The notes under the pieces are model-generated. The model did not search any database, was not told the DNA's origin, and worked only from the letters and a program-made list of their open reading frames with translations. A stretch of DNA of 64,000 nt from Microbacterium sp. SORGH_AS_1204. Its GTDB lineage: Bacteria > Actinomycetota > Actinomycetes > Actinomycetales > Microbacteriaceae. The number at the start of each line of letters is the position of its first letter. The stretch's first letter is position 1. This document shows positions 35,315 to 56,341 of this stretch, piece after piece. Location: positions 868,001-932,000 of the forward strand of contig NZ_JAUTBD010000001.1 in assembly GCF_030818935.1 (NCBI RefSeq), written 5' to 3'. The position numbers and the translations under genes were made by a program.

Positions 35315-35351
35315 ACGTTAGGCGTGCGCCGACGGTGACCGGCGGGGGTTG
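35315..35351 (-). promoter_or_regulatory. CAACCCC-N24-TAACGT promoter of dps
   Basis: Reading the minus strand: CAACCCC at 35351-35345, 24 nt, TAACGT at 35320-35315. No recognisable -35 hexamer lies at the normal 17-bp distance. Confidence 0.6.
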
Positions 35352-35409
35352 CGAGGGCGACGACAGCGCGGTACCGAGTCGTCGCCGTAGCCGCTCGGCA
35401 TCCAAACGA

Positions 35410-35446
35410 CAACCCCGGCCTGACCGTCCGCCACCGTTCCTAGCGT
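35410..35446 (+). promoter_or_regulatory. CAACCCC-N24-TAGCGT promoter of the GH15 gene
   Basis: CAACCCC at 35410-35416, 24 nt, TAGCGT at 35441-35446, then six bases to GTG 35453 (leaderless). Same geometry as the divergent dps promoter. Confidence 0.6.
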
Positions 35447-35452
35447 GAACAC

Positions 35453-37261
35453 GTGCCCATCGAACCCCCGTCGCCGTCTCGGCCGCTCCGCGACTACGCC
35501 GCCATCGGCGATGGGCGCACGGTCGCGCTGATCGGTCTCGACGGGTCGGTCGATTGGCTGCCGCTGCCGAACATCCACTCGCGGCCGGTCTTCGCGCGGC
35601 TGCTCGACGAGACGGCCGGAGGGTGCATCGAGCTGGCGCCGGTGGAGGAGTACGAGGTGAAGCGGCGCTACGTCGCCCACACCAACGTGCTCGAGACGAC
35701 GTTCACCACGAAGACCGGCGTCGCGAAGGTCACCGACGCCATGGTGACGGGTATCGCGGGCCGACTGCCGTGGGCAGAACTCGCGCGTCGCGTCGAGGGC
35801 GTGCGCGGTGAGGTCGAGTTCGCCTGGTGCGTGCAGCCCGGCACGATGCTGCGCTCGGCCGCGCCCTGGACCGAACGCATCGACGGGTTCTCCATCATGC
35901 GCATCGGGCACGTGTCCCTCGCCGTCGTCGGGCACGAACACGGACTGCACGGAGACCCGGATGCCCGGAACGAAAGCATCGACGGAAGCTTCACGACGTC
36001 GAAGGGTTCGCGTCACCTCCTGGTGATCGCCGCCACTGAGGGAGAGCCGCTGCGCATCCCCAACGCGCAGAACGTCGACCGCGGGATCGACCGCACCATC
36101 GGCGGATGGCAGATGTGGTCGGACGAGTTCTCGTACGAGGGTCCCTGGGCCGATGACGTGCAGCGCAGCGCCCTCGCGCTCAAGCTTCTGCTGTTCAGCC
36201 CGACGGGCGCCATCGCGGCGGCGGCGACGACCTCGCTGCCCGAGAACCCCCGCGGGGGCAAGAACTGGGACTACCGCTATGCCTGGGTGCGCGACCTCGC
36301 GTACACCGCTCACGCCTGGGTGGGCTTCGGCCTGCGCGAAGAGACGCACGCCGCGATCTCGTGGCTGTTGCGCACGATCCGCGAAAACGGCCCCGGGGTG
36401 CAGGTCATGTACACCCTCGACGGCGGCGCCGACGTGAGCGTCGAGAAGCACGAGGTCCCGGGCTGGAACGGCAATCAACCGGTGGTCACCGGCAATCCCG
36501 CGCAGGGGCAGCTGCAGCTCGGCGTGTACGGCGACCTCATCGCGATCTGTCGCACGTACGTCGAAGCCGGCAACCGCCTCGACACGCAGACCGGGCGGCT
36601 CTTGGCCGACGTCGCCGACCGCACGTGCGACCTGTGGCGCCGCGAGGACTCCGGCATGTGGGAGCTGCCCGAGCTGCGGCACTACACCTCGTCGAAGATG
36701 GGGTGCTGGAAGGCCCTCGATGACGCGCAGTGGCTGGCCGACGGCGGACACATCCCCGACAACGGCGATCGCTGGCGCGCGGAACGCGATCGCATCCATG
36801 CCTGGGTCGAGACGCACTGCTGGTCGGAGAAGCTCGAGGCGTACACGATCCACCCCGACAGCGAGGACCTCGACGCATCGGTGCTGCTGCACGCCCCCAC
36901 CGGATTCGATCGCGGTGAGCGTATGTCGAAGACCCTGGATGCCATCACCGAGCGCCTCACCACCGACGACCACCTCGTCTACCGCTACACCGGCATGGAC
37001 CAGGAGGAGCAGACCTTCGTCGCCTGCGCCTTCTGGCGGGCGACCGCGCTGGCGTGCGTCGGCCGGCACGCCGAGGCGATCGAGGCGATGGACGCCCTCG
37101 TCGCCCAGGGCAACGACGTCGGCATCTACTCCGAGATGATCGCCGAGGCCGACGGGGCTTTCTGGGGCAACCTCCCGCAGGCGCTCAGCCATCTCGCCCT
37201 CATCAACGCCGCCCTCGTCATCCGCGAACTGGTGGATGACGCCGAGCTCGGCGACCGCTGA
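35453..37261 (+). CDS. glycoside hydrolase family 15 protein (glucoamylase/trehalase-like)
   Basis: Cytoplasmic-type GH15 enzyme of 602 residues, likely to hydrolyse an alpha-glucoside such as trehalose or a maltodextrin. The N-terminal beta domain starts LRDYAAIGDGRTVALIGLDGSVDWLPLPN; the alpha/alpha toroid has the family signature NWDYRYAWVRD (about 268-278), LDGGADVSVEKHEVPGWNG and GDVGIYSEMIAEADGAFWGNLPQALSHLALINAA with the second catalytic region. No signal peptide. GTG 35453 lies six bases after TAGCGT, so the transcript is leaderless. A stress-related SDR gene follows after 55 bases. Trehalase activity is plausible in actinobacteria but not proved. Confidence 0.88.
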   Translation: MPIEPPSPSRPLRDYAAIGDGRTVALIGLDGSVDWLPLPNIHSRPVFARLLDETAGGCIELAPVEEYEVKRRYVAHTNVLETTFTTKTGVAKVTDAMVTGIAGRLPWAELARRVEGVRGEVEFAWCVQPGTMLRSAAPWTERIDGFSIMRIGHVSLAVVGHEHGLHGDPDARNESIDGSFTTSKGSRHLLVIAATEGEPLRIPNAQNVDRGIDRTIGGWQMWSDEFSYEGPWADDVQRSALALKLLLFSPTGAIAAAATTSLPENPRGGKNWDYRYAWVRDLAYTAHAWVGFGLREETHAAISWLLRTIRENGPGVQVMYTLDGGADVSVEKHEVPGWNGNQPVVTGNPAQGQLQLGVYGDLIAICRTYVEAGNRLDTQTGRLLADVADRTCDLWRREDSGMWELPELRHYTSSKMGCWKALDDAQWLADGGHIPDNGDRWRAERDRIHAWVETHCWSEKLEAYTIHPDSEDLDASVLLHAPTGFDRGERMSKTLDAITERLTTDDHLVYRYTGMDQEEQTFVACAFWRATALACVGRHAEAIEAMDALVAQGNDVGIYSEMIAEADGAFWGNLPQALSHLALINAALVIRELVDDAELGDR

Positions 37262-37316
37262 CCCCTCCGCCGGGGCCCACCCTCCCGGCATCCATCCCCC
37301 TCAGAAAGGACTCGCC

Positions 37317-38210
37317 ATGAGCACGCAGTACACCTTCACCGACCCGGCGAAGCTCTATGCCGACATCGACCCGCAGTCGCAGGATGCGAAGGAGCCCGGT
37401 CTCGACGCCGAACTGACGCCGAAGGCCGCCCTCGGTGAGGACACCTACGTCGGCAGCGGACGTCTGGAGGGACGCAAGGCCCTGATCACCGGCGCCGACT
37501 CGGGCATCGGCGCGGCCACCGCGATCGCCTTCGCCCGCGAGGGCGCCTCGGTCGCGATGTCGTACCTGCCCGAGGAGAAGGTGGATGCCGACCGCATCGC
37601 GGGCATCCTGCGCGAGGCCGGCGCCACCGTCGTGCAGATCCCCGGCGACCTGCGCGAGCGTGAGTACGCCAAGACCCTGGTCACGGAAGCGGTCGAGGGG
37701 CTCGGCGGTCTCGACATCGTCGTCAACAACGGCGGCAAGCAGATCTTCAACGAAGACGTCACGACCCTGACCGACGAGCAGTTCGACGACACGTTCAAGA
37801 CCAACGTGTACGCCATGTTCTGGATCTGCAAAGAGGCCGTGCCGCACCTGCAGCCCGGCTCGACCATCATCAACACCACGTCGATCCAGGCGTACTCGCC
37901 CGCGCCGATCCTCGTCGACTACGCCTCCACCAAGGCGACGATCAACACCTTCACCAAGGCGCTCGGTCAGCAGCTCGCGCCCAAGGGCATCCGTGTGAAC
38001 GCGGTCGCCCCGGGCCCGATCTGGACGCCGCTGCAGGTCACCGACGGCCAGCCCGACGAGAAGGTCGACGAATTCGGCGAGGAGACCCCGCTCGGCCGCA
38101 TGGGCCAGCCGGCCGAGCTCGCCCCGGCGTACGTCTACCTCGCCTCGGCGGAGTCGAGCTACGTCATCGGCGAGACGCTCAACGTCAACGGCGGCATGCC
38201 GACGCCGTAA
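37317..38210 (+). CDS. SDR-family oxidoreductase, general-stress type
   Basis: Short-chain dehydrogenase of 297 residues with a roughly 45-residue N-terminal extension (MSTQYTFTDPAKLYADIDP) as in the YhdF/YdaD/YhxC group of Bacillus stress proteins. The cofactor site is ALITGADSGIGAATAIAF, the NNGG motif is in IVVNNGGKQIF, and the catalytic triad is Ser in NTTSIQAYSP with Tyr and Lys in DYASTKATI. The C-terminal VIGETLNVNGGMP is standard. AGAAAGGA precedes the ATG. It is probably co-transcribed with the GH15 gene. The natural substrate is unknown. Confidence 0.9.
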   Translation: MSTQYTFTDPAKLYADIDPQSQDAKEPGLDAELTPKAALGEDTYVGSGRLEGRKALITGADSGIGAATAIAFAREGASVAMSYLPEEKVDADRIAGILREAGATVVQIPGDLREREYAKTLVTEAVEGLGGLDIVVNNGGKQIFNEDVTTLTDEQFDDTFKTNVYAMFWICKEAVPHLQPGSTIINTTSIQAYSPAPILVDYASTKATINTFTKALGQQLAPKGIRVNAVAPGPIWTPLQVTDGQPDEKVDEFGEETPLGRMGQPAELAPAYVYLASAESSYVIGETLNVNGGMPTP

Positions 38211-38279
38211 GCAGCGACACTCACGAGGGGCCGTCGTCCGGGTGCGGGCGGCGGCCCTTCGGCATCCGTGGTGGTCGAA

Positions 38280-38346
38280 AACAGGGGATGCCACGAGAAC
38301 AGGCCGATCTCGGCCGGATCCCCCTGTTCTCGTCGCATCCCCTGTT
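38280..38346. terminator. long hairpin of the AACAGGGGATGCCACGAG family
   Basis: Arms of 24 nt (38280-38303 and 38323-38346) with one mismatch. The arms contain AACAGGGGATGC and ACGAGAACAGG. It lies between a plus-strand SDR gene and a minus-strand acetyltransferase gene, so it can act in both directions. Confidence 0.6.
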
Positions 38347-38367
38347 CTCGTGACGGTGCCCGGCAGG

Positions 38368-38829
38368 TCAGACGAGCGGTTTGCGGTAGAAGATCTCGCC
38401 GTCGGCGGTCTCTTCGGTGCGGTGGTAGCCCTCGCGCTCGTAGAGTCGCTGGTTCGCCTCGCTCAGGCCACCGGTGAACAGTTCCGCCTCGGTGGCCCCC
38501 GCCTCTCGGCCGCGATCTTCGACGGCGCCGAGCAGCAGCGTGCCGAGGCCTTCGCCCTGCTGGTCGGGGGCGATGGCAAGGCGCCCGATGAGCAGCAGCT
38601 CGCCGTCCTGGCGGGCGCGCACGGCGCCGACGATGCGGTGGCCCGCGATCGCGACGCAGCCGAGGTTCTCGACGAGCTCGGCCCGGAGCTCCTCGAGCGT
38701 CTGGGTGAGCGGAGGCATGTCGGGATCGCCATAAATGAGCGCCTCGCTGGCGAAGGCGGCGCGCTGGATGGTCAACACCTCCCCGGCGTCGTCGGGACTG
38801 ACAGGGCGGATGATGGGCGAGTTCGGCAT
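38368..38829 (-). CDS. GNAT-family N-acetyltransferase
   Basis: Acetyltransferase of 153 residues. It shows the GNAT core IGRLAIAPDQQGEGLGTLLLGAVEDRG (about 80-106), where QGEGLG contacts acetyl-CoA, and the terminal ELFTGGLSEANQRLYEREGYHRTEE with the conserved asparagine and tyrosine. The middle segment GCVAIAGHRIVGAVRARQDGELLLIG forms the central strands. Substrate unknown. It is monocistronic, divergent from an AraC-type gene and separated from the convergent SDR gene by the long hairpin. Confidence 0.85.
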   Translation of the reverse strand: MPNSPIIRPVSPDDAGEVLTIQRAAFASEALIYGDPDMPPLTQTLEELRAELVENLGCVAIAGHRIVGAVRARQDGELLLIGRLAIAPDQQGEGLGTLLLGAVEDRGREAGATEAELFTGGLSEANQRLYEREGYHRTEETADGEIFYRKPLV

Positions 38830-38916
38830 CGACGTTCTTTCGCGGGGAGGTGAGACGACAGGTTAACTATCATGGGCTCTGCGCCCCCGATTCTTCATCG
38901 GTGGACGAAGCCCCCC

Positions 38917-39846
38917 ATGAACGATTTCTTCACGACGACCGTCCACGCCGCTGACGTCGCCGAGACGCAAGCCTGGCTGCAGGCGCACTACGGTCACGTC
39001 GACGTGCAGGCCGATCGCGCCTCGTTCGCCGAAGACGCCGTCGGTGACGGTGCGTTCTCGATGCGTCGATTGACGTGGGACTGCCGTGCCGAGGTCATCT
39101 ACGAGGCGGATCGGTTCTATTTCGCCACCTCCACCCCGGGATACGCTTGGACCGTGGGGTCGCAGGCGGGGGAGTACAGCGTCGAGCCGGGCCTCGTCCA
39201 GCCCGGCGAAGACCTCGTCGGGCGCCCGGACGACACGACGGTGCAGCTCATCGCGTTCGACACCGCGTGGTTGACGGAATCGGCGCGGGCCATCTACGGC
39301 GACGAGTCGCTGACCGTCCGCTTCGCGGGTGCGGCTCCCGTCTCGCGCCGCATGCGCGACTACTGGCTCGCCACCGTCCGGTGGTCGCTGACCCAGGTGC
39401 CCGTGATGGCAGAGCCCCTGGTGCGTGCGCACGTGCGACGCTCGCTGGTCGCGGCGACGCTGGAGACCTTCCCGCTGGTGGGAGATCCGCGCGAACGGCG
39501 CGCATCGGCACTGGAGCAGGCGTCGATCTACACCTCGGCCACGGCGTGGATCGACGATCACGCGTCGCTGGCCGTGACCGTCGACGACGCGGCACGGGCG
39601 GTCGGCACCTCGACGGAGGGCCTGCGGCGCGCGTTCGCCGCGAACGGCCAACTCACCCACACCCCGGAGGAGTATCTCGCGGCGGCGCGGGTGAGCGCCG
39701 CGCACGCCGACCTCGTCGACGCGGATCCCGCCTGCGTCACCGTCGACGAGGTGGCCGCCCGCTGGGGATTCATCGATCGCGCCGCCTTCGCGCGGGCGTA
39801 CCGCGGCGCGTACGGGGTGGCGCCCGAGTCGACGCTCGAGCGCTGA
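38917..39846 (+). CDS. AraC-family transcriptional regulator
   Basis: Regulator of about 309 residues with a C-terminal AraC HTH pair: WIDDHASLAVTVDDAARAVGTSTEGLRRAFAANGQLTHTPEEYL and RVSAAHADLVDADPACVTVDEVAARWGFIDRAAFARAYRGAYG. The N-terminal 200 residues form an unknown sensing domain. An ATG at 38872 would overlap a TTAACT -10-like box (38863-38868), so ATG 38917 is preferred although its ribosome site is poor. The gene ends four bases from a convergent acidic-protein gene. Its overall layout resembles the regulator at 49052-49984. Confidence 0.82.
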   Translation: MNDFFTTTVHAADVAETQAWLQAHYGHVDVQADRASFAEDAVGDGAFSMRRLTWDCRAEVIYEADRFYFATSTPGYAWTVGSQAGEYSVEPGLVQPGEDLVGRPDDTTVQLIAFDTAWLTESARAIYGDESLTVRFAGAAPVSRRMRDYWLATVRWSLTQVPVMAEPLVRAHVRRSLVAATLETFPLVGDPRERRASALEQASIYTSATAWIDDHASLAVTVDDAARAVGTSTEGLRRAFAANGQLTHTPEEYLAAARVSAAHADLVDADPACVTVDEVAARWGFIDRAAFARAYRGAYGVAPESTLER

Positions 39847-39850
39847 GCGA

Positions 39851-40111
39851 TCACCGATCGCGGTCGGTGTACTCGCCGGGGTCGCCGAGATCCTCGCGCG
39901 ACTCGCCGCCGCCGGGCAGTTCGACATCGGTGTAGGCACCGGCCTCATCGGACCGTGGCCGGTCCTGCGTCCCGTCGGCGTTCTGCCGGTCGACGTACTC
40001 GCCGGGGAGGTCCGCGCTGCCGCGATCGGCGGTGCCGTCCGGCAGCTCCAGGTCGGTGTACTCGCCTTCGTCGGGTCCCGTGCCGTGTCCGTTGACGTCG
40101 CGTTCAGCCAT
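39851..40111 (-). CDS. acidic repeat-containing protein, probably disordered
   Basis: Protein of 86 residues composed almost wholly of hydrophilic residues. It has repeated units of the type GEYTDLELPDG, GEYVDRQNADG, GAYTDVELPGG and GEYTDRDR, spaced about 24 residues. There are no hydrophobic helices. Such sequences are expected to be intrinsically disordered; similar small acidic proteins occur twice more in this window. GGAGG lies well placed before the ATG. Function unknown; stress protection or hydration is only a guess. Confidence 0.65.
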   Translation of the reverse strand: MAERDVNGHGTGPDEGEYTDLELPDGTADRGSADLPGEYVDRQNADGTQDRPRSDEAGAYTDVELPGGGESREDLGDPGEYTDRDR

Positions 40112-40250
40112 TGCCGCCTCCTGGGTCGTGGTGGCTCGACGGTAGACCTCGGCGCGCTCGCCCGCAGCGGACTTGACAGGGCCGCTGTCGCGGCGGAGGG
40201 CGTGTGTCAAGGCGGTGGGAGCGGCGTTCGGGCGGAAGCAGGGTGGAGGC

Positions 40251-40409
40251 ATGCCAGCTCTCGCCATCATCCTCGTCATCGCCGGTCTCGTGCTGCTGTT
40301 CCTCGGTATCTTCGTCGAGGCCGTGAAGTTCCTGCTGTGGATCGGCCTCATCGTCCTGATCATCGGCGTCGTCGCGGCGCTTCTGCGTTTCCTTCGCCGA
40401 CAGGTCTGA
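40251..40409 (+). CDS. 52-residue two-helix membrane protein
   Basis: Very hydrophobic small protein: PALAIILVIAGLVLLFLGIF and FLLWIGLIVLIIGVVAALLRF form two helices, followed by a basic tail RRQV. This is the look of the small actinobacterial membrane proteins of DUF6131 type. GGAGG lies three bases before the ATG, which strongly supports translation. The role is unknown. It ends shortly before a long hairpin and a convergent epimerase gene. Confidence 0.72.
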   Translation: MPALAIILVIAGLVLLFLGIFVEAVKFLLWIGLIVLIIGVVAALLRFLRRQV

Positions 40410-40435
40410 CCGGGGGCGCGCGCCACGGCGATCCC

Positions 40436-40506
40436 AGAACAGGAAATGCGCCGAGAACGGGCCGTTCGAGCGCACGTCGCCCTGTGGTCGTGGCATCCCC
40501 TGTTCT
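40436..40506. terminator. degenerate long hairpin, same family as 38280-38346
   Basis: AGAACAGGAAATGCGCCGAGAAC on the left pairs imperfectly with CATCCCCTGTTCT on the right; the right arm keeps the CCCTGTTCTCGTGACG sequence of the 38.3-kb element. It lies between convergent genes. Confidence 0.45.
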
Positions 40507-40589
40507 CGTGACGCGAATGGCCCGCCCCGCACGTTCTGACACGCCGCTTCCCGCGCTCCTCATCGGCACGGGGAGCGGCGTTCGGGCTT

Positions 40590-41594
40590 TCAGGCCGAGA
40601 AGAGGTCGCGTGCCCGCGGCCGCCGCACCGCCGCGACGGCGTCGAGCGCGGGGCCGAGCTCGGGATGACGGAACGCGAAACCCGCGTCGGTGAGCACGCG
40701 CGGCACCGCCCAGCGGCTCTTCAGCACAAGCTCCGGCTCGTTGCGCAGCAGGGCCATCGCCGGGTCGAGCATCCAGCGGAAGGCCGGGAGGCCCAGCGGC
40801 ATCCGGGCCACCCGTCGAACCTCGCGCATGAGCGTGCGGTTGTCGCTGACGCCGGGAGCGGCGAGGTTGACGGGACCGGCGAGATCGTCGCGGTCACGAA
40901 GGAAGCGCACGGATGCCACGACGTCGTCGATGTGGATCCAGCTGAAGCGCTGGCGACCCGACGTGCGGTGCCACGACGACCACACGGGGCCCGTCGGTCG
41001 TGCGCCGATCCCGCGGTAGCGGCGGTGCGGAAACCACCAGCTGTCGATCTGCGGGCCGCCCAGGCCCATCCGCCCGAGCGCGAGCAGTATGCGGGTGGCG
41101 GGGCCGTCGCCCAACACGATCGCCATGCGCAGCGCCACGCGCCGGGTGGCGGGCAGGTCGCCGGCGAAGAAGGCCCGCTCCCAGCTCGTGGCGACGTCGA
41201 CCGAGAACCCCTCGCCGATCGTCCCGTCGACCTCGTCGTTGCCGTGCTCCGTCTCGTGCCGGTAGATGGTCGCCGTCGAGGCGTTCATCCACACGCGCGG
41301 CGGGCGCCGCGCGGCGGCCACGGCGGCGTGGAGCTCGCGTGTCGTGTCGACGCGTGAGCGCAGGATCTCGTCGCGATTCGCGTCGGTGTACCGGCACGAC
41401 ACGATCTTGCCCGCGAGATTCACCAGGACGTCGGCGCCGTCGACGAGGCCCTCGATGGCCGCGGCGTCACCCCAGACCGCCGTGCCGGAGCGTCCGACGG
41501 TGGCGACGTCGTACCCGTCGTCCGCGAACGCGGCGGTCAGGGCGCGCCCGACGAAGCCGCTCGCTCCGGCGATGACGACGCGGGGTCGGGGCAC
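40590..41594 (-). CDS. TIGR01777-type NAD(P)-dependent epimerase
   Basis: Atypical SDR of about 334 residues. The N-terminal motif is VVIAGASGFVGRALTAAFADDGYDV; VLVNLAGKIVSCRYTDANRDEILRSRVDTTREL is the hallmark region of the TIGR01777 (YfcH-like) family; the end LLFGEARVVL-like part appears as ELVLKSRWAVPRVLTDAGFAFRHPELGPALDAV. GTG 41594 was chosen because GGAGG lies just upstream; an in-frame TTG at 41606 overlaps that ribosome site. Family members are linked to cell-division or sugar-nucleotide functions, but the reaction is unknown. Confidence 0.83.
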   Translation of the reverse strand: MPRPRVVIAGASGFVGRALTAAFADDGYDVATVGRSGTAVWGDAAAIEGLVDGADVLVNLAGKIVSCRYTDANRDEILRSRVDTTRELHAAVAAARRPPRVWMNASTATIYRHETEHGNDEVDGTIGEGFSVDVATSWERAFFAGDLPATRRVALRMAIVLGDGPATRILLALGRMGLGGPQIDSWWFPHRRYRGIGARPTGPVWSSWHRTSGRQRFSWIHIDDVVASVRFLRDRDDLAGPVNLAAPGVSDNRTLMREVRRVARMPLGLPAFRWMLDPAMALLRNEPELVLKSRWAVPRVLTDAGFAFRHPELGPALDAVAAVRRPRARDLFSA

Positions 41595-44894: not shown

Positions 44895-45365
44895 TCAGGC
44901 GTCGTCGGGGTCGGGGAGGTTCTGCGCGATCCGGCTCGACGCGGCGGAGTCGCGGCCGACACCGGGCTGGAACTTCGCGATGGGGTCGTCACCGTCGACG
45001 TGCGGCTCGCCGCCGCCGTCCGCCGGCGGGGGAGACGCGGGGGTGCGGTTGTCGGTCTCGACCGCGTCACGGTCGGGCCGTCCGGTGTCTTCCGTGTGCC
45101 GCGATGTCGAACCGTTCTCGCCGCGCGCGTCGTCGGTGCCCCTCTCGGTGAGGCCGTCGGCCGCCCGCGTGCCCACGCCGGGCAGGTCGTTCTGGCTCGA
45201 GATGCCCTGGATGCGCGCTTCGTCGTCGGCATCGATCTCGGCGGCTCCGACGGCTCCCGTGTCGGCTCCGGCGGCGCCCGCGGGGACGTCTGCGGCAGCG
45301 CCCTCGGAATCGGGGACGATGTTCTCTTCGTCGGCTCCGGGGAGCCGGTCGGCGGGAGTGTTCAT
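44895..45365 (-). CDS. acidic disordered protein, 156 residues
   Basis: Low-complexity hydrophilic protein rich in Asp, Glu, Gly, Ala and Thr (DRLPGADEENIVPDSEG, IDADDEARIQGISSQNDLPGVGTRAADG, FQPGVGRDSAASSRIAQNLPDPDDA). No hydrophobic core or signal peptide, so disorder is likely. AAAGGA precedes the ATG. Its promoter has CAACCCC-N24-TAGCGT, the same as dps and GH15, which suggests co-regulation in stress. Compare the acidic proteins at 39851-40111 and 50164-50523. Confidence 0.65.
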   Translation of the reverse strand: MNTPADRLPGADEENIVPDSEGAAADVPAGAAGADTGAVGAAEIDADDEARIQGISSQNDLPGVGTRAADGLTERGTDDARGENGSTSRHTEDTGRPDRDAVETDNRTPASPPPADGGGEPHVDGDDPIAKFQPGVGRDSAASSRIAQNLPDPDDA

Positions 45366-45392: not shown

Positions 45393-45429
45393 ACGCTAGG
45401 CGCGGCGTCGACGAGGCGACCCGGGGTTG
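45393..45429 (-). promoter_or_regulatory. CAACCCC-N24-TAGCGT promoter of the acidic-protein gene
   Basis: On the minus strand CAACCCC occupies 45429-45423 and TAGCGT 45398-45393, exactly 24 nt apart. Confidence 0.6.
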
Positions 45430-46661: not shown

Positions 46662-47114
46662 TCAGCTGACGTCGCCGCGCCAGGCGCCGGACTCGGCACC
46701 GCGCGACTCGATGTACTCCTTGAAGTTGTCGAGGTCCTTCTTGACCGAGTGGTCGTCGGCGCCGAACGCGGCGCCGAGCTTCTCGAGCACGCCGGTCGGC
46801 TCCCAGTCGATCTGCACGGTGACGCGCGTCTCGTCGTCGGACAGGCGGTGGAACGTGACGACACCGGCGTGGTTCTCGTCGCCGCCCACGCTGTTCCACG
46901 CGACGCGCTCGTCGGGGTGCTGCTCGGTGATCTCGGCGTCGAATTCGCGCTCCGCGCCGCCGATCTTGACCTTCCAGTGCGTCAGGGTGTCGTTCTTCTG
47001 CGTGATCGACTCCACGAAGCTCATGAAGTGGGGGAACTCCTCGAACTGCGTCCACTGGTTGTACGCGACGCGGACGGGAACGTTGACGTCGATGGTTTCG
47101 ATGACCTGTGCCAT
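46662..47114 (-). CDS. SRPBCC family protein (polyketide cyclase/dehydrase-like)
   Basis: Protein of 150 residues with the START/Bet v1-like fold: opens MAQVIETIDVNVPVRVAYNQWTQFEEFPHFMSFVESI, the cyclase/dehydrase family pattern, then EREFDAEITEQHPDERVAWNSVGG and VTVQIDWEPTGVLEKLG. The C-terminal helix DDHSVKKDLDNFKEYIESRG closes the cavity. Such proteins are common in actinobacterial stress islands and bind lipids or hydrophobic ligands; the ligand here is unknown. Upstream lies CAACCCC at 47189-47183 with AAGACT at 25-nt distance, a weaker version of the dps-type promoter. Confidence 0.87.
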   Translation of the reverse strand: MAQVIETIDVNVPVRVAYNQWTQFEEFPHFMSFVESITQKNDTLTHWKVKIGGAEREFDAEITEQHPDERVAWNSVGGDENHAGVVTFHRLSDDETRVTVQIDWEPTGVLEKLGAAFGADDHSVKKDLDNFKEYIESRGAESGAWRGDVS

Positions 47115-47151: not shown

Positions 47152-47189
47152 AGTCTTCGCGCCTTGCCGCGACCACGCCCCCGGGGTTG
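47152..47189 (-). promoter_or_regulatory. degenerate CAACCCC-type promoter of the SRPBCC gene
   Basis: On the minus strand CAACCCC lies at 47189-47183 and AAGACT at 47157-47152, with a 25-nt gap. Similar to the four exact instances but off by one base in spacing and one in the -10 box. Confidence 0.35.
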
Positions 47190-48545: not shown

Positions 48546-48614
48546 GGGGGATCCTCTCGTCTCCCTCACGCTCGCCCGCGGCGCGCCGCCGCGCCAGCGC
48601 CTTGACAGCGGGAC

Positions 48615-49051: not shown

Positions 49052-49984
49052 TCACGACATGCGGATCACCTGCGCCGGATTCTGGCCGTAGTGCTCGCGG
49101 TGGTACCGGGCGAAGCGCGACGCGCTCGAGAACCCCCAGCGCCGTGCCACCTCGGCCACCGACACCGCGGTGCCGGCGCGCAGCTCGTCGTGCGCGGCGC
49201 TGAGGCGCACTCGCCGCAGGTATTCGGTCGGTGTCGTGTCGAGCTCGCGCCGGAACGCGTGCTGCAGTCCGCGCGAGGAGATCCCGGATGCCGCGGCGAT
49301 GTCCTCAAGCGTGAGCGGCTGCTGTGCGTGAGCCTCGATGTGCGCGATCGCGCGGCGCACCGTGCGCGGAGCGGCTGCGCGCTGGTGGGCGCGGGCGACG
49401 GCCTCGACGTACGGGGTCGAAAAGGCGGACAGCGTCGTCAGCAACGCGTGTCGACGCAGCTCCTCCGCGAGGATGGGTTCTTCGTGCGTGGCGCCCAGTG
49501 ACGACGACACGTGCGCGAAGCTGCGTTCCCACTGCGTCGCCGCGTCGCGGCTGCGCGGGGCCGGGTCGACGCGGCGCAGCACGAGGCGGTCGTCGCCCGA
49601 GGCCACGCGGGCGACGCGTTCGGCGTCGGTGCGGTCGAACACGAATGCGCGCACGCGCGCGGAGCCCGTCCATTCGGCGTCGATGCGGCGTTCGGAGGCG
49701 AGCCACGGAAGTCGGGGGGCGATGGCACCGGGACCGGAGGTGAGCCGCAGATCGTCGCCCACCATGCGACACGCCATGAGCTGGTCGGTCATCTCGATGG
49801 AGGCGTGCACGCTCGCGGTCAGCTGCCAGCTGACCACCGAGAACCGGTCGAGTTCGACCGACTCCCAGGCGAAGGCCACCGTGCGGGGATCGACGCGGTC
49901 CAGGCGCGCACTCGGCACGAACCGCGTCCACACGCGTTCGACGTCGTCGATTCCGCGGGAACGGACATTCAGGATCTGTCCCAT
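49052..49984 (-). CDS. AraC-family transcriptional regulator
   Basis: Regulator of 310 residues. The C-terminal AraC domain reads AIAHIEAHAQQPLTLEDIAAASGISSRGLQHAFRRELDTTPTEYL and RVRLSAAHDELRAGTAVSVAEVARRWGFSSASRFARYHREHYGQNPAQVI, the full double HTH and signature. The N-terminal 190 residues resemble the cupin-like ligand domain of AraC-type regulators (FSVVSWQLTASVHASIEM). Targets unknown. It may regulate the divergent acidic-protein gene or the SQR gene downstream. Confidence 0.87.
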   Translation of the reverse strand: MGQILNVRSRGIDDVERVWTRFVPSARLDRVDPRTVAFAWESVELDRFSVVSWQLTASVHASIEMTDQLMACRMVGDDLRLTSGPGAIAPRLPWLASERRIDAEWTGSARVRAFVFDRTDAERVARVASGDDRLVLRRVDPAPRSRDAATQWERSFAHVSSSLGATHEEPILAEELRRHALLTTLSAFSTPYVEAVARAHQRAAAPRTVRRAIAHIEAHAQQPLTLEDIAAASGISSRGLQHAFRRELDTTPTEYLRRVRLSAAHDELRAGTAVSVAEVARRWGFSSASRFARYHREHYGQNPAQVIRMS

Positions 49985-50163
49985 GGTCTTCCTTCCGCCG
50001 CGGCGAGGTGCGGCTTTCGTCGTGGGGGCGTCGGAGGCTCGGCATCCGTCGCCGGTCGTCGGGGGTGAGGCGTGTCAAGGGGCGGGCCGGTGGCCGGCTG
50101 GCCGTGTGGGATGAGGGGACCGCCGATTCCGGTGGAGACCCTCGTCCGACGGAAGGACCCCCC

Positions 50164-50523: not shown

Positions 50524-50587
50524 CGAACCCGCGGCGTCCCGGCAGCCCGTCGCGGCCACCGGGACGCCGCGTGCGCGAGCGGAGCGC

Positions 50588-51628
50588 CTATGCATCGGTC
50601 GCCTCGCCCTGCGCTGCCTCTGTGCGACGCAACGCGCACGGCACGGCCGTCGCGATCCGGGCCGGCTCCTGCGCTCGGATGTGGTCGACGGACCGACGCC
50701 GCAGCACGCGCAGCGGGGTCGCGGCCCGCAGCACTCGTCGTCCCGCGTAGGGAACGCCGCCGGTCGCGCGCATGGCCAGGGCGATCCAGCTCGTGACCGC
50801 CCGCTCGGCGGCCCACAGCGGCGCCCAGAGCGCGGCGGTGCGGGCGAAGACGGCGTCTCCACGAGCGCGCCGCCGCCCGATCTCGGCCGCACCGACGGCG
50901 ATGGCGGCCAGAAGACAGAGGATGCCGGGATGCCGACGCAGCGCGAACGCCGTCGGCGCCACGGCGAGCTCCAGCATCAGGCGCCGCGGCTGCGCGAGGC
51001 TGTCGTACGCCTGGCGCACCCGCTGCGACCAGAATCGTCGCGCGCTCGGCGGCCGGCGCACGACGTACAGGTCGTGGCAGTGACGCACGCGGCCGCCGCC
51101 GGCGCGCACCGTGCGTTCCATCTCGAGATTCTCGAACAGTGCGTCGACGCCGTAGCCGCGGGGGAGCGCCCTGCACCGCAGGGCGTAGGTGCCGGGGTAG
51201 TCGCCCCTCGTCGCGCGGTTGATGAGTGACCGCGCGGTGTCCCAGCGCGCGTGCCAGGGCCGCGGCTCGAAGACGTTCTGCGGAGCGACGAGGTCGGCAT
51301 CCCGCACCTCGTACAGCAGCGCCCGCAGCGTCGCGCGATCGTGGCGCACGTCGTCGTCGGCGGTCACGACGATCTCGTGGCGGCTGGCCTTCAGCCCGCT
51401 CAGCACGCCCCGCGCCTTGCCGTTCAGTCCCTCGACGACCGATGGGGCGAGGTGACGCACTCCGGCGGGGAAGGTCCGCGCGTGCGCGGCGAACAGCGCG
51501 GCGTCGGATCCGTCGACGACCGTGACGTCGATCCACCGCTCCAAGCGCGTCAGGTAGGCGGTGAGCTCGTCGAGCCCGGTGTCGTCGGTCCAACGCAGCG
51601 GCAGGATGTACTCCGCATCGAGGCGCAT
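50588..51628 (-). CDS. glycosyltransferase family 2, membrane-associated
   Basis: Protein of 346 residues. The N-terminal GT-A domain starts AEYILPLRWTDDTGLDELTAYLTRLERWIDVTVVDGS, contains the metal-binding acidic triplet in EIVVTADDDVRHDRATLRALL and the acceptor-side GTYALRCRALPRGYGVDALFENLEMERTVRAGGG. Hydrophobic segments near 220-290 (GILCLLAAIAVGAAEIG, LWAPLWAAERAVTSWIALAM) suggest membrane anchoring. It overlaps the CDGSH gene by one base (TGATG) and is the third gene of an operon with a diiron-type oxidase. Sugar donor and acceptor unknown. Confidence 0.82.
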   Translation of the reverse strand: MRLDAEYILPLRWTDDTGLDELTAYLTRLERWIDVTVVDGSDAALFAAHARTFPAGVRHLAPSVVEGLNGKARGVLSGLKASRHEIVVTADDDVRHDRATLRALLYEVRDADLVAPQNVFEPRPWHARWDTARSLINRATRGDYPGTYALRCRALPRGYGVDALFENLEMERTVRAGGGRVRHCHDLYVVRRPPSARRFWSQRVRQAYDSLAQPRRLMLELAVAPTAFALRRHPGILCLLAAIAVGAAEIGRRRARGDAVFARTAALWAPLWAAERAVTSWIALAMRATGGVPYAGRRVLRAATPLRVLRRRSVDHIRAQEPARIATAVPCALRRTEAAQGEATDA

Positions 51629-51828
51629 CAGTCGTCGGTGCGGAAGCCGGATGCCTTGTGCGTGCCGTCGCAGAACGGCTTGATCGTCGACAGCCCGCAC
51701 CGGCAGAGCGCGACGGTCCGGCGCGTGCGCACCACCTCCCGTCCGTCGCTGCTCTCGATCCGCGCGTCGCCGCGTACGAGGAGCGGCCCGTCGGGGTAGG
51801 CGGTGATGGTGACCGGGGTCTCGCTCAT
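51628..51828 (-). CDS. CDGSH iron-sulfur domain protein (mitoNEET type)
   Basis: Protein of 66 residues. The signature CRCGLSTIKPFCDGTH supplies the three-Cys-one-His ligands of a [2Fe-2S] cluster (C-x-C-x8-C-x3-H) near the C-terminus. The N-terminal strands (VTITAYPDGPLLVRGDARI) form a beta-cap. No membrane anchor, unlike mitoNEET. It overlaps the upstream diiron-protein gene by four bases and the glycosyltransferase gene by one, so all three are translated together. It probably serves as an electron or cluster donor for the diiron partner (inference). Confidence 0.92.
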   Translation of the reverse strand: MSETPVTITAYPDGPLLVRGDARIESSDGREVVRTRRTVALCRCGLSTIKPFCDGTHKASGFRTDD

Positions 51829-52872
51829 CGACCGGCCACCTGACGCAACGACGATTCGCCGCGCGACCAGGCGTCGAGCATGTGGCGCCCGACGCGGTCG
51901 TCGACCTCCAGGCAGGCGGCCGCGCCGAAGACGATGTCGGCGAGCAGGTCGGGACGGTCTTCGGCGAGGGCTCCGGCGAGGTCGCGGCCGGCGATCTGCT
52001 CGTGCACGGCGTCGGCTTCGACGTGCTCGTCAAAATACTCGCAGACGTCGTCGCCGTACTCGAGGCGTCGCAGCCCCTCGGCGTAGAGGCGGTTCGGGAT
52101 CGAGGAGGTCATCTCGAACGCCGCGAGATGCCCGACGATCGCGCCGAGCAGACGCCGGTTCAGGCCGAACATCGACATCGTGTTCAGCGAGGCCAGTGTC
52201 ACGGCGGGCACGTCGTCGATGTAGGTGCCATAGACGTCGTCGAGTCCCGCGCCGCGAACGGCTCGTGCGAAAAGGGCGGCGTGCACACGGTCGGGCCGGC
52301 CGCCGCCGTATTCGTCGGACTGGATCTCGACCAGCGCCGCCTTCGGGCGTCCGCTCAGGCGGGGGATGGCCCACGAGTGCGGATCGGCCTCGCGCAGCGT
52401 GTACACGGTGCGGTGCACGAGGAACTCTCGCGCCTGGTCGACGGTGGCCTTGCGCGCGAGGAAGCGCGACAGGCTCGGTCCGCCCTCCGCGCCGGTGAGG
52501 GTGAAAGAGCGCGCGGGCCACGGCATCCGCGGTCGGCTCGGGAAGGGTGGGCACGACGACGCTGCGCCGCAGCGACCGCTCGAACGCGTCCTCGATGACC
52601 CGGCGCGTGGCGATGAGCGCGGGGTCCCATTCGAGGTCGGCGCGGAGGGCCTCGATCGACCCGTACGCCGAGGCGTACAGGGTGAAGAGGACCAGCTGCA
52701 GGTCGTCGTCGCGCTCGATGTCGACGGATGCCACGACGGCAGCGTCGGCGAGGGCGGTGTGCGCTGTGGCGGTGCCGTCGACGAGGTGCTGGAGGACCGC
52801 GGCGCTCACCGGCCCTCGCGCGCGGAACGGCGCGGCGACGGCGGGCGCGGCGGTAGTCAGGGTGGGGGGCAC
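51825..52872 (-). pseudogene. heme-oxygenase-like diiron protein (iron-containing redox enzyme), frameshifted
   Basis: First gene of the CDGSH-glycosyltransferase operon. Two overlapping reading frames together encode a protein of about 348 residues. The first frame covers 52872 down to about 52505 (PPTLTTAAPAVAAPF to PTADAVARALF). The second continues TLTGAEGGPSLSRFLARKATVDQAREFLVHR to a stop at 51825. The switch lies in the AAA run at 52504-52506, where one base is extra. Motifs VEIQSDEYGGG and CEYFDEHVEADAVHE fit the metal-ligand helices of heme-oxygenase-like diiron oxidases. A sequencing or assembly indel is the simplest reading, because both halves are well preserved. GTG 52872 is the likely start. 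Confidence 0.72.
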
Positions 52873-52981
52873 CCCCGCACTGTGCGGTCTCGGCCGCGCC
52901 CGCGCACAGACCCTTGACAAGATCGGGGGCGCGCACCGGGGGAGCAGCCCCGGGTGGGACCGCTCCCTCGGTGGTGTCGGC

Positions 52982-53437
52982 TCACTGCTCGATGAGCTGC
53001 GGGGTGCTCTCGTGCGCCTCGATGACGCCGTCGTGCTCGTCGGTCGAGACGGCGATGCGGCGTGGCTTCGCCTTCTCGCTGACCGGGATGGTCACGCTCA
53101 GCACGCCGTTGCGGTACGAGGCGCTGATGCGGTCGGTGTCGATGCCCTGCCCGAGGTTGAGCTGACGGACGAAGGATGCCGTCTCGCGCTCGCGCGTGAT
53201 CCACTTCACGCCGTCGCCGCTGCCGAGCGTGCGCTCGGCGCGGATGGTCAGCAGCTGGCCGTCGACGTCGATGTCGACCGAGCCCGGGTCGACGCCCGGG
53301 AGGTCGGCGGCGAGCACGTAGTGGTCGCCGTCGCGGTAGAGGTCCATCGGCATCCGTCGCGGACCGCCGCCGCGGCGCGCGTCGAGAAGGGTCGACGCGA
53401 GGCGGTCGAGGTCGCGGAAGGGGTCGTAGGTGGCCAT
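52982..53437 (-). CDS. Hsp20/alpha-crystallin family small heat-shock protein
   Basis: Chaperone of 151 residues. The alpha-crystallin domain runs from PMDLYRDGDHYVLAADLPGVDPGSVDIDVDGQLLTIRAERT to ASYRNGVLSVTIPVSEKAKPRRIAV, with the GVL motif in NGVLSVTIPV. The N-terminal ATYDPFRDLDRLASTLLDARR is the short actinobacterial form. ATG 53437 follows TAAGGAG. Its promoter holds both a CIRCE element and a HAIR element, so HrcA and HspR should both repress it. It is divergent from manganese catalase. Confidence 0.94.
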   Translation of the reverse strand: MATYDPFRDLDRLASTLLDARRGGGPRRMPMDLYRDGDHYVLAADLPGVDPGSVDIDVDGQLLTIRAERTLGSGDGVKWITRERETASFVRQLNLGQGIDTDRISASYRNGVLSVTIPVSEKAKPRRIAVSTDEHDGVIEAHESTPQLIEQ

Positions 53438-53490
53438 GGTCGTTCTCCTTATCGATCGGTCGGGACGTGGCATCCCGATGGTTCGGTGAA

Positions 53491-53511
53491 GTTGAGTGAC
53501 GGTGACTCAAC
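53491..53511 (-). promoter_or_regulatory. HAIR operator (HspR) of hsp20
   Basis: GTTGAGT-N7-ACTCAAC, one base at each end off the HspR consensus CTTGAGT-N7-ACTCAAG. It lies just downstream of the -10 box on the hsp20 strand. Confidence 0.8.
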
Positions 53512-53521
53512 TGCGCTCAGA

Positions 53522-53548
53522 TTAGCACTCTCGATAGGAGAGTGCCAA
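53522..53548 (-). promoter_or_regulatory. CIRCE operator (HrcA) over the hsp20 promoter
   Basis: TTAGCACTC-N9-GAGTGCCAA, one mismatch from the CIRCE consensus. On the gene strand it overlaps TTGGCA (53548-53543) and TAATCT (53524-53519), spaced 18 bp, which are good -35 and -10 boxes. Confidence 0.88.
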
Positions 53549-53691
53549 GACCCGGGCGCGCGATTGTGACGCGCTCGGGGACGCGCCGCAACCCCCGTGC
53601 CGAGCCCCCTGTCGCGGACGTTTCGTCGCGTCACGCGTCGCCGCGGTCGTCCGACCGCCCGTCCCCTCGAGCGGCGCGGTGAGGAGAGACG

Positions 53692-54573
53692 ATGTACTTC
53701 CACCGGCAAGAGCTCCAGCACTCGGCCACCCCCGAGAAGCCCGACGCCGTCTACGCCCGCAAGCTCCAGGAGGTGCTCGGCGGCCAATACGGCGAGATCT
53801 CGGTCGCGATGCAGTACCAGTTCCAGGCGTGGAACATGCACATGCCCGGCAAGTACCGCGACCTCGTCTTCGGCATCGGTGCGGAGGAGATGGGCCACGT
53901 CGAGATGCTCGCGATCATGATCGCCCAGCTGCTCGAGAAGGCCCCGCTCGGCATCACCGAGGAGGCCGTGCAGAACGACCCGACCGTCGCCGCGGTCATC
54001 GGCGGCACCGACATCCAGCACGGCATCGTCGCCGGAGCGGGCGCGCGACCGGTCGACTCGATGGGCAACCCCTGGCAGGGCAGCTTCATCACCGCGAGCG
54101 GCAACCTGCTCGCCGACTTCACCGCCAACGCCAACGCCGAGATGCAGGGCCGGGTGCAGGTCGCGCGGCTCTACCACCAGACCGACGACCACGGCGTGAA
54201 GGACCTGCTCGCCTTCCTGCTCGCGCGCGACACGATGCACCAGAACCAGTGGATGGCGGCCGCCGCCGAACTGCAGGAGGAGGGGCTCGAGAAGCTCCCC
54301 GTACCCAGCAACTTCCCCCTCGACAAGGAGGACCGCGACGTGGCGTACCAGTACATCAACTTCAGCGACGGCAAGAAGGCCGGCGACGGCTCCTGGGCGT
54401 CGGGGCCCACGCCCGACGGCAAGGGGGAGTTCTCGTACCTGCCCGAGCCGCCCGCGGGCGTGCCGATGCCCCCGCCCACGCACCCCGACGCGCGGTTCTA
54501 CGGCACCACGGAGCTGCCGAACACGGTCGAGAAGCTCGCCGGCCGCGCGCAGGACGCGCTGCACAAGGAATGA
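53692..54573 (+). CDS. manganese catalase
   Basis: Non-heme catalase of 293 residues that removes H2O2 with a dimanganese centre. The ferritin-like ligands appear in order: Glu in GGQYGEISVAMQYQFQAW, Glu and His in IGAEEMGHVEMLA, Glu in NANAEMQGRVQVARLY and His in ARDTMHQNQWMAAA. The C-terminal tail (PEPPAGVPMPPPTHPDARFYGTTELPN) is the family lid segment. GAGGAGAG precedes ATG 53692. Upstream CAACCCC at 53589 with TTTCGT 25 nt on is a possible weak version of the dps-type promoter. It overlaps the next gene by four bases. H2O2 from the sarcosine oxidase would be one source of substrate. Confidence 0.95.
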   Translation: MYFHRQELQHSATPEKPDAVYARKLQEVLGGQYGEISVAMQYQFQAWNMHMPGKYRDLVFGIGAEEMGHVEMLAIMIAQLLEKAPLGITEEAVQNDPTVAAVIGGTDIQHGIVAGAGARPVDSMGNPWQGSFITASGNLLADFTANANAEMQGRVQVARLYHQTDDHGVKDLLAFLLARDTMHQNQWMAAAAELQEEGLEKLPVPSNFPLDKEDRDVAYQYINFSDGKKAGDGSWASGPTPDGKGEFSYLPEPPAGVPMPPPTHPDARFYGTTELPNTVEKLAGRAQDALHKE

Positions 54574-55136
54574 GCGGGGCGGATGCCGCGGTGCCGGGGC
54601 CCTCGACGGTCTCGGCGCCGCGCAGCGGAGCGAGCTTTCCCGCGATGCGCGCGGCGAAGGTTCCGCGCGCGATCGTGGCGGGACCCTACGGGCACCCTTT
54701 CCACCCGATCGCGGTGACCATCCCCATCGGGGCGTGGTCCTCGAGCCTGGTGTTCGATCTGCTCGGGCTCGCCGCCGATGACCCGCGGGCATTCGCGACG
54801 GGCTCGAGGTGGCTCATCGCGATCGGGCTCGGCGGGGCCGTCGCGGCGTCGGTGCTGGGGGTGCTCGACATGTCGAGGATCCCGCCCGGCACGCCCGCAC
54901 GGCGCACCGCGCTGGTTCATCTGACGCTCAACGTCACCGCGATGGTGCTGTTCTCGCTCAGCCTCGTGCTGCGCGTTCTCGACCTGGCTCGCGTGCCGGT
55001 CGTGGCGTTCGGACTGAGCCTCGTGGCATCCCTGGGCCTGAGCGTGTCGGGGTGGCTCGGCGGCAAGCTCGCCTACCGCTGGGGCGTGCGCGTCGCCGAC
55101 GAGAACACCCAGCGCGAGGGCTTCGAGACGGCCTGA
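54570..55136 (+). CDS. DUF2231-type membrane protein
   Basis: Integral membrane protein of 188 residues with four helices. The family pattern is HPFHPIAVTIPIGAWSSSLVFDLLGLAADDP near 47-77, then LIAIGLGGAVAASVLGVLDMSRIPPGTPARRTALVHLTLNVTAMVLFSLSLVLR and VPVVAFGLSLVASLGLSVSGWLGGKLAYRWGVRV. The conserved histidines in the first helix and HL-type third helix suggest heme or metal binding. ATG 54570 overlaps the manganese-catalase stop (ATGA), so the two are one operon. The function is unknown, but similar pairs occur in other actinobacteria. Confidence 0.8.
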   Translation: MSGADAAVPGPSTVSAPRSGASFPAMRAAKVPRAIVAGPYGHPFHPIAVTIPIGAWSSSLVFDLLGLAADDPRAFATGSRWLIAIGLGGAVAASVLGVLDMSRIPPGTPARRTALVHLTLNVTAMVLFSLSLVLRVLDLARVPVVAFGLSLVASLGLSVSGWLGGKLAYRWGVRVADENTQREGFETA

Positions 55137-55192
55137 CGCGGCACATCCCTGAGCCTCGCAGGGGGCCCGGGACGCCCACGGGCCCTCTGCGT

Positions 55193-55356
55193 GGCGGCAG
55201 GTGCCTGAGCTTGTCGAAGGGGACCGGTACCCGCGGTGGGGTCGGAGGCTTCGACGGGCTCAGCCTCCCGCGTGGGCGGCAGGTCCCTGAGCTTGTCGAG
55301 GGGGACCGGTACCCGCGGTGGGGTCGGAGGCTTCGACGGGCTCAGCCTCCTGCGAC
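55193..55356 (+). repeat. two 82-bp direct repeats of the TGAGCYYGTCGAAG type
   Basis: Copies at 55193-55274 and 55275-55356 with about five differences. Each contains CCTGAGCTTGTCGA and CTTCGACGGGCTCAGCC as imperfect inverted arms, so each can fold. The second copy runs into the 3' end of the minus-strand SDR gene. Single copies of the core occur at 31491 and 47231. Confidence 0.75.
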
Positions 55357-56259
55357 GGAACTTCGGCGATCGCGCGGCCGCCGCAGGGGCACCCGTCCCC
55401 AGCCGCCGCTCACCGCGCCGGGGTCGTGCCACGCGTCGAGCACGGCGCCGGGCGTCGGCGCGGTGGGCCTCCGGCGCAGGCCCAGCAGGTGCTGCAGCGT
55501 GCGGATGAACCGGTCGTACACGCGGGGGGCGAGCAACTGCAGCGGACGCGTCACGAACTGGGCTGCGCCCACCCCGACCTCGTGCCGCCGCCCGCGTACC
55601 GCCCGCACGATCGCCCGCGCGACACGGTCGGCGGCGACAACGGGCGGCAGCGGGAACGCGGTGCGGCCGGTGTAGTTCGCCGCGCGCTGGTAGATCGGGG
55701 TGTCGATGCTGGCCGGCAGCACGATCTTGATGCGGATGCCGCGATGCGCGAGCATCTCCTGGCGCAACGAGCGGGTGAATCCGAGGAGCCCGTGCTTCGC
55801 GGCGACGTACGACGAGACGTAGGGCCCCGCGACCTGGGAGTACAGCGAGCCGACGAACACGATCGTGCCGCCGCCCCGGGCGCGGAAGTGGGGGATGACG
55901 GCCCGCGCCGCGCGCATATGGCCGACGAGGTTGGTCTCGATGACGCGGTCGCGCACGGCATCCGGAGTGTCCTCCACCGAGCCGTACGAGAAGACGGACG
56001 CCGAGGCCACCCACACATCGATGCGCCCGAACCGTTCGACGGCGGCGTCGGCCGCCCGCTCCGGCCCGTCGGGCAGGGCGAGGTCGACCGACACCGTGTG
56101 CACCTCGGCGCCACGGGCGCGGCAGTCGTCGGCGGCGGATGCCAAGGCCACCTCGTCGCGGGCGACCAGCACGAGTCGTGCGCCCTTCTTCGCGAAGCGC
56201 AGGGCTGCGGCGCGACCGATACCGCGAGAGCCCCCCGTGACGACGACGACCTGGCGCAT
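55342..56259 (-). CDS. SDR-family oxidoreductase
   Basis: Short-chain dehydrogenase of 305 residues. Cofactor site VVVVTGGSRGIGRAAALRFAKKG, IDVWVASASVFSYGSVED, catalytic Ser in IVFVGSLYSQVAGPYVSSYVAAKHGLLGF with Tyr-x3-Lys in the same segment. A C-terminal extension beyond the Rossmann core (about 230-305) is proline/arginine-rich and ends in sequence derived from the 82-bp repeat. AGGGGAG precedes the ATG. Its promoter is one of the four exact CAACCCC-N24-TAGCGT sites. Substrate unknown. Confidence 0.88.
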   Translation of the reverse strand: MRQVVVVTGGSRGIGRAAALRFAKKGARLVLVARDEVALASAADDCRARGAEVHTVSVDLALPDGPERAADAAVERFGRIDVWVASASVFSYGSVEDTPDAVRDRVIETNLVGHMRAARAVIPHFRARGGGTIVFVGSLYSQVAGPYVSSYVAAKHGLLGFTRSLRQEMLAHRGIRIKIVLPASIDTPIYQRAANYTGRTAFPLPPVVAADRVARAIVRAVRGRRHEVGVGAAQFVTRPLQLLAPRVYDRFIRTLQHLLGLRRRPTAPTPGAVLDAWHDPGAVSGGWGRVPLRRPRDRRSSVAGG

Positions 56260-56304
56260 GCGTGCTCCCCTCGCGACGGTCGCCGGTGCGGCGGACCGCG
56301 ACGG

Positions 56305-56341
56305 ACGCTATGCGGGTGGGAGGGGGATGCCACGGGGGTTG
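56305..56341 (-). promoter_or_regulatory. CAACCCC-N24-TAGCGT promoter of the SDR gene
   Basis: On the minus strand CAACCCC occupies 56341-56335 and TAGCGT 56310-56305, exactly 24 nt apart. The SDR start codon lies 45 bases beyond the -10 box. Confidence 0.6.

Follow-up and report, generated by a model that had tools for sequence, protein, structure and literature searches.

The stretch analysed here, called the window, comprises 64,000 nucleotides of Microbacterium sp. SORGH_AS_1204 (positions 868001-932000 of the 3,706,564-base single-contig genome) and holds, between window positions 34700 and 57400, an island of stress genes encoding Dps, GH15, short-chain dehydrogenase (SDR), SRPBCC, DUF7882, haem-oxygenase-like, Hsp20 and manganese-catalase proteins. 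The element under study, CAACCCC followed after 24 nucleotides (N24) by TANCGT, lies upstream of four genes of this island. The first-pass annotation, made from the letters of the sequence, had described it as a possible new class of stress promoter with CAACCCC exactly 24 nt before TAGCGT (TAACGT for dps), weaker versions spaced by 25 nt, no visible -35 box, and either an activator site or an alternative-sigma element in the CAACCCC box. A pattern search returned the four sites at exactly the places, strands and spacing described, at 35315-35351 (-), 35410-35446 (+), 45393-45429 (-) and 56305-56341 (-), and none in 100 dinucleotide shuffles of the window; freeing the gap to 15-32 gave the same four sites and added none. 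The parts of these promoters and the genes they precede are given below, where the proximal half is the CAACCCC box and the distal half a second box further upstream.

35345..35351, minus strand: CAACCCC, proximal half-site of the dps promoter, about -43 to -37 (pattern search)
35315..35320, minus strand: TAACGT, -10 hexamer of dps (pattern search)
35370..35373, minus strand: TACC, distal half of the dps promoter, fitting T[AG]NC at -22 from CAACCCC (read from the sequence; distal half kept in dps relatives)
34724..35299, minus strand: dps (ferritin-like) gene, probable start ATG at 35284, 30 nt past the -10 (Pfam PF00210)
35388..35391, plus strand: TAGC, distal half of the GH15 promoter (read by the T[AG]NC rule)
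35410..35416, plus strand: CAACCCC, proximal half-site of GH15 (pattern search)
35441..35446, plus strand: TAGCGT, -10 hexamer of GH15 (pattern search)
35453..37261, plus strand: GH15 (trehalase-like) gene, GTG 6 nt past the -10, predicted leaderless (PF00723, PF19291)
45423..45429, minus strand: CAACCCC, proximal half-site of the acidic-protein gene, with a weak distal half, TGAA (pattern search)
45393..45398, minus strand: TAGCGT, -10 hexamer of the acidic-protein gene (pattern search)
44895..45365, minus strand: acidic-protein gene (no Pfam match)
56335..56341, minus strand: CAACCCC, proximal half-site of the SDR gene, with a distal half that keeps the T alone (pattern search)
56305..56310, minus strand: TAGCGT, -10 hexamer of the SDR gene (pattern search)
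55342..56259, minus strand: SDR gene (PF00106)
47152..47189, minus strand: weaker site, CAACCCC-N25-AAGACT, upstream of the SRPBCC gene at 46662-47114 (site read from the sequence, gene by Pfam)
53589..53626, plus strand: weaker site, CAACCCC-N25-TTTCGT, upstream of the manganese-catalase gene at 53692-54573 (site read from the sequence, gene by Pfam)

The gene identities first assigned to GH15, Dps, SDR, SRPBCC and manganese catalase agree with Pfam, and the acidic protein is without a Pfam match. Both weaker sites do have the exact CAACCCC and the N25 spacing ascribed to them, but their hexamers, AAGACT and TTTCGT, are poor -10s. Scored with a weight matrix, the four window sites reach 18.5-21.6, compared with a best score of 16.1 in 400 kb sampled elsewhere in the genome. 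A further CAACCCC at 56590 (+), close to a divergent dehydrogenase gene, has a fair upstream match and no -10 at the right distance.

Across the whole genome, CAACCCC-N24-TANCGT occurs eight times, four of them within 21 kb of the window, in the stress island, and the reversed control gives none. When the gap was allowed to range from 10 to 40, 15 matches were obtained (one at 22, two at 23, eight at 24, three at 25 and one at 36; reversed control, 2), and the excess at gap 24 over the mean of the other gaps corresponds to a Poisson P of about 2e-10, so that the lack of an excess over spacings of 20-28, named at the outset as grounds for refutation, was not borne out. The same pattern is present in 61 of 71 genomes of the genus (249 matches versus 6 in the reversed control), and 47 genomes of other families yielded 3 matches versus 3 in the control. 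The ten genus genomes that are free of it (G004, G010, G026, G030, G037, G043, G046, G048, G054 and G064; two of them less than 85% complete) may use a CAATCCC or CAAGCCC form instead. A search with a generic -10, CAACCCC-N14..34-TANNNT-N6/7-ATG, matched in 106 of 119 genus genomes (control, 10), and among the 150 matches listed, on which the gap and -10 tallies rest, the gap was 22-26 in 138 and exactly 24 in 74. Chance and base composition as the source of the sites are ruled out by the shuffles, the reversed controls, the spacing peak and the genus counts.

The position of start codons identifies the downstream hexamer. The motif was used to fetch 107 sites from genomes of the genus and its relatives, and in 49 of them ATG or GTG stands 6-7 nt past the hexamer, as against 13 occurrences over nine other offsets (3 to 13). 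Since this is the distance between a -10 and a leaderless start, TANCGT was taken as a working -10, which places CAACCCC at -43 to -37. The 150 leaderless matches listed divide into 69 with TANCGT and 81 with another TANNNT, with an identical spacing peak, and 18 of twenty further sites carry a non-CGT -10, several of them upstream of genes that, judged from the first residues of their proteins, are apparent orthologues of CGT-site genes: TAGCCT for a flavin-dependent oxidoreductase and an NAD-binding protein, TAGGGT for a 'DIRWNEPARQKILDD' protein, TAAGGT for LigD and a small acidic protein, and TAGCTT for a permease. The shared peak and the varied -10 of the apparent orthologues indicate that the -10 is an ordinary actinobacterial TANNNT, of which the hexamers TAGCGT and TAACGT first described are cases, and that CAACCCC is the fixed part. 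Upstream of the -10, a hexamer starting with TTG is found at spacers 16, 17 and 18 in 1, 1 and 0 of 93 N24 sites, and at each spacer from 6 to 18 in 0-1, which for most sites upholds the initial remark on the missing -35.

The CAACCCC box is accompanied by a second one. T[AG]NC lies exactly 22 bp upstream of its first C in 34 of the 107 promoters, compared with 6 of 117 CAACCCC without a following -10 (P 1e-7), and its count in the promoters is 7 or fewer at every other offset between -40 and -9; this comparison left out 30-mer duplicates, the other-genera loci L088-L107, and each CAACCCC that had some TANNNT at gap 20-28 but failed to qualify as a promoter. The dps gene provided a set chosen by protein alone, in which 552 relatives were found, 80 loci were kept and one, the truncated L240, was dropped. 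A CAACCCC-like box (at most two mismatches) with TANNNT at 22-26 is present in 32 of these 79 upstream regions versus 6 of 462 control windows, and 50 of the 79 score above the 99th percentile of the control with the weight matrix, which was trained on own-genus sites including some dps promoters and is thus not wholly independent of this set. In many species, the dps promoter has CAATCCC, CAAGCCC or CAACCCG as its core and TANCAC as its upstream half (27 dps sites of this form). When the gap between the halves was freed to 9-25 across the family, 17 matches were obtained in 13 of 299 genomes (reversed control, 6), with gaps of 17 in ten cases, 16 in three (two being identical copies in sister genomes), 18 in one and other values in three. 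The full element is TANCAC-N17-CAANCCC-N24-TANNNT, and its two halves share WANCMC, 23 bp or about two helical turns apart. What had been annotated as the box is therefore its proximal half, in a lineage-specific form of CAANCCC, and the distal TANCAC some two turns upstream had been missed.

With regard to distribution, GCAACCCC-N23-25-TANCGT was matched in 93 of 299 family genomes and 45 of 85 genera, about 205 times versus about 32 times in the control, so some single matches of the GCAACCCC pattern are chance. The strict full element, searched for across the order, is found in 6 of 34 family genomes, in 0 of 362 other genomes of the order and not in the control; within the sample searched, it is restricted to Microbacteriaceae. 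It also matches six viral contigs (L305-L310, of 2.9 million contigs), probably no more than chance by a rough estimate.

The downstream genes were characterized by a Pfam scan of 97 of 107 downstream proteins, the remaining ten being near-copies or doubtful open reading frames. As these sets were fetched by means of the motif, they describe the targets and are not a random sample. The best 25 of 74 families are led by SDR (9) and include DJ-1/PfpI (4), luciferase-like (4) and Ferritin/Dps (4) proteins, two each of CBS, SRPBCC, DUF2188, DUF7882, TREH_N and alpha-amylase, and one each of G6PD, LigD and an amino-acid permease; CsbD-like, small membrane and 'SLKDPELYEKLR' proteins were recognized by reading of the sequences alone. 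In other genera, the element lies, also by reading, upstream of CsbD-like, GSP39-like SDR, small membrane, SRPBCC and DUF7882-like proteins. The set (Dps, CsbD-like, SDR, DJ-1, SRPBCC, LigD) resembles a general-stress regulon. The original suggestion that these sites form one class of promoters, that most of the class serves stress-type genes and that CAACCCC lies at about -40 is supported.

The anatomy described above can be compared with that of known promoter classes. Class II activator-dependent sigma-70/sigma-A promoters, such as those of AraC, XylS, MalT and CRP class II, share with the element a box immediately before the -35 position, a tight spacing to the -10 (here, gap 22-26 in 138 of the 150 listed), a weak or absent -35, and a generic -10, which in the present case is a TANNNT at a set distance from the start. 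We consider it probable that CAACCCC is the proximal half of a two-part element about 24 nt before an ordinary TANNNT of stress-type genes in Microbacterium and other Microbacteriaceae and that it is bound by a probably dimeric activator that would recruit sigma-A RNA polymerase to promoters mostly lacking a -35. Such a protein would bind at about -65 to -37; it would be a dimer, given two WANCMC half-sites that are separated by 23 bp, or two turns, and lie on the same face of the helix; and it may touch sigma region 4 and take the place of the -35, as the class II geometry and a -10 spacing mostly within one base suggest. In this way the activator would steer the housekeeping sigma-A enzyme to stress-type promoters, presumably upon induction by stress, and could replace the SigB-type control of other Gram-positive bacteria. 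We know of no regulator that reads TANCAC-N17-CAANCCC, and no title or abstract opening listed by the open-access literature searches names the element; these searches lay mostly outside subscription journals and do not establish absence from print.

General stress regulons are run by alternative sigma factors, namely, SigB in Bacillus, SigF/SigB in mycobacteria and streptomycetes, and EcfG in alphaproteobacteria. The genes found here overlap in kind with those of such regulons (Dps, CsbD-like, GSP39-like SDR, catalase, LigD and small membrane proteins), but the -10 is of the sigma-A type and the sigma factor census returned no SigB/SigF-type factor. Nine proteins of this genome have sigma-70 region 2 (PF04542): one RpoD over its NCBIfam cut-off (NF004561) and eight proteins of the extracytoplasmic-function (ECF) kind, all matching the ECF superfamily model, seven over the cut-off and one (L114) below it. 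Assigned from the best 25 families per protein, none of the nine is a SigB/SigF/SigG-type factor over the cut-off; the SigBFG model TIGR02980 is matched by RpoD alone (129.8 bits versus a cut-off of 234.35), and RpoD, the sole match to the large-sigma models, reaches 455.8 against the SigB model NF005920, whose cut-off is 464. More tentatively, and with real doubt on our part, we suggest that the general stress response of Microbacteriaceae might do without any sigma factor dedicated to general stress: one lineage-specific master activator would read TANCAC-N17-CAANCCC and direct the housekeeping polymerase, in each genome, to some tens of stress genes, adding a third solution to those of SigB and EcfG. 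The open-access literature searches listed no account of the control of stress survival in Microbacteriaceae. A defined DNA element can serve as bait for its regulator and allows candidate members of the regulon to be listed for Microbacteriaceae genomes; with it, one can also test whether an activator can take the part of a sigma factor in running a general stress response.

Several observations weigh against a dimeric activator acting on a two-part element of stress promoters: (i) the distal half is weak in Microbacterium (T[AG]NC in 34 of 107), and two of the window's four sites have a poor one, so that an activator of a single box is possible; (ii) the strict two-part pattern is found in just 13 of 299 family genomes, and the genome of the window is not among its bearers, the distal halves TACC (dps) and TAGC (GH15) having no CAC end; (iii) 29 of the 79 dps regions score below the 99th percentile of the control; (iv) for some targets, such as an amino-acid permease (Pfam) and, in other genera, a cytochrome P450-like and an oxidase-like protein (by reading), a role in stress is not obvious; (v) 13 of 93 spacers match TTGACA at 4-5 of 6 places (spacer 16-18), versus about 4 in shuffled spacers, and hence a minority of promoters may use a weak -35; (vi) beside the sites, no family of regulators exceeds two occurrences (ROK, LacI, MarR) among the best 25 of 105 families in 123 neighbouring proteins, picked by hand from 197 open reading frames (the other 74 being short pieces and some long or overlapping frames); and (vii) a diverged sigma factor could escape PF04542.

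As to the other explanations, an alternative sigma factor of the ECF or SigB-like kind, reading CAACCCC as -35 and TANCGT as -10, was one of the two options originally offered. ECF promoters have an AAC core in the -35 and CGT in the -10, with 15-19 nt between the AAC box and the -10, and CAAC is similar to the former and CGT to the latter; the targets are also similar to those of sigma-B regulons, and a CGT -10 is somewhat commoner here (69 of 150 listed) than in other leaderless candidates of the genome (12 of 42; P 0.03). The 24 nt between the boxes (peak at 23-25) are, however, more than sigma regions 2 and 4 can span, apparent orthologues differ in their -10 within the form TANNNT, with 81 of 150 listed matches departing from TANCGT under the same peak, a second half-site lies two turns further upstream, and the census holds RpoD and ECF-like proteins alone. 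Given that the -10 is generic, and given the spacing and the census, we reject this explanation as quite improbable, and the activator site is the better of the two options. A different reading takes the two-part element for part of a divergent promoter, whose -35 and extended -10 it would supply (complement GGGNTTG ... TGNTA); it draws on the 17 bp between TTGNNN and TA and on TGNTA, which fit the sigma-70 layout on the other strand. The last T of an antisense TANNNT, though, needs a sense A at -26, where only 6 of 107 sites have A and 53 have C, and such a promoter leaves the set spacing to the sense -10 unexplained; we find this barely credible.

If the element is bound by an activator, the family of that protein can be considered. 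AraC/XylS sites extend from about -69 to -35, with two direct halves about 21 bp apart and the proximal one adjoining the -35, a layout to which that of the element may correspond, the distance between direct halves measured here being 22-23 bp. Three AraC-type genes lie in or beside the island, two of them inside it (window 38872-39846, plus strand, and 49052-49984, minus strand) and the third at genome positions 939011-939931 (plus strand). The protein encoded at 49052-49984, used as query at E 0.001, finds the other two, and the third belongs to a set of 13 similar proteins from as many genomes, each genome with 5 to 12 N24 sites; 12 of the proteins have a 314-codon frame. Set against this, the query has no match in G032 (6 sites) or G025 (5 sites), so that the island proteins are not supported as a universal reader; the third AraC is not among the matches listed for G019, G040, G044 and G065 (6-8 sites each); HTH_18 has one match in G003 (1 site, 94% complete) and three within 1 kb in G041 (2 sites); and the correlation is confounded by relatedness among the genomes rich in sites. 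HTH_18 proteins are present in 15 of 15 genomes tested, and other AraC members are possible readers, but on balance a dimer of this family, such as one of the three island proteins, appears unlikely. LytTR sites are direct repeats 21-22 bp apart, and a LytTR reader is excluded by the absence of any LytTR protein from the site-rich genomes G020 (12 sites), G024 (9), G027 (7) and G032 (6). We rate a LuxR-type (GerE) regulator of the RamA or MalT kind, with CCCC-containing boxes, on a par with the AraC dimer; MalT boxes read TCATCCCC near -38. RamA of Corynebacterium glutamicum, a LuxR-type protein, likewise uses CCCC boxes, its motifs being A/T/C-GGGG-N and A/T/C-CCCC-N, which ACCCC fits, but the available part of the source names for them neither a set distance to the -10 nor a second half (PMC4847777). 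The RamA motif is also so short that most G+C-rich sites fit it.

A last comparison concerns PafBC, the DNA-damage regulator whose promoters have the consensus TGTCRGTG-N8-TANNNT. The element resembles the PafBC promoters of mycobacteria in keeping a sigma-A -10, lacking a -35 and having a family-specific second box, and a promoter of this sigma-adaptation kind could be suspected from the frequency of TGTCGG at -16 from the -10 in the genome, where 7 of the 42 leaderless candidates from 464 kb have it, and from LigD (Pfam) and a uvrB-like gene (by reading) among the genes with CAACCC boxes. TGTCGG followed by A, T or C is nevertheless found in the spacer of just 6 of the 150 CAACCCC leaderless promoters listed, so that a PafBC element is as a rule not part of them, and CAACCCC is absent from all seven TGTCGG candidates, one of which has CAACCCG. 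PafBC takes a place between sigma-A domain 4 and the DNA of the promoter, and its motif is at -26 (PMC11804915). The boxes here are at about -40 and -63. PafBC is rejected as the explanation and is very improbable; its promoters form a separate class that meets the CAACCCC class at times, both occurring in this genome. Among leaderless candidates of the own genome, no positional words are more enriched than those of the PafBC-like TGTCGG-N10-TANNNT; TGTCGG occurs together with CAACCCG at a uvrB-like gene, identified by reading, at L124 14630 (+), and together with CAACCCC at L129 2750 (-).

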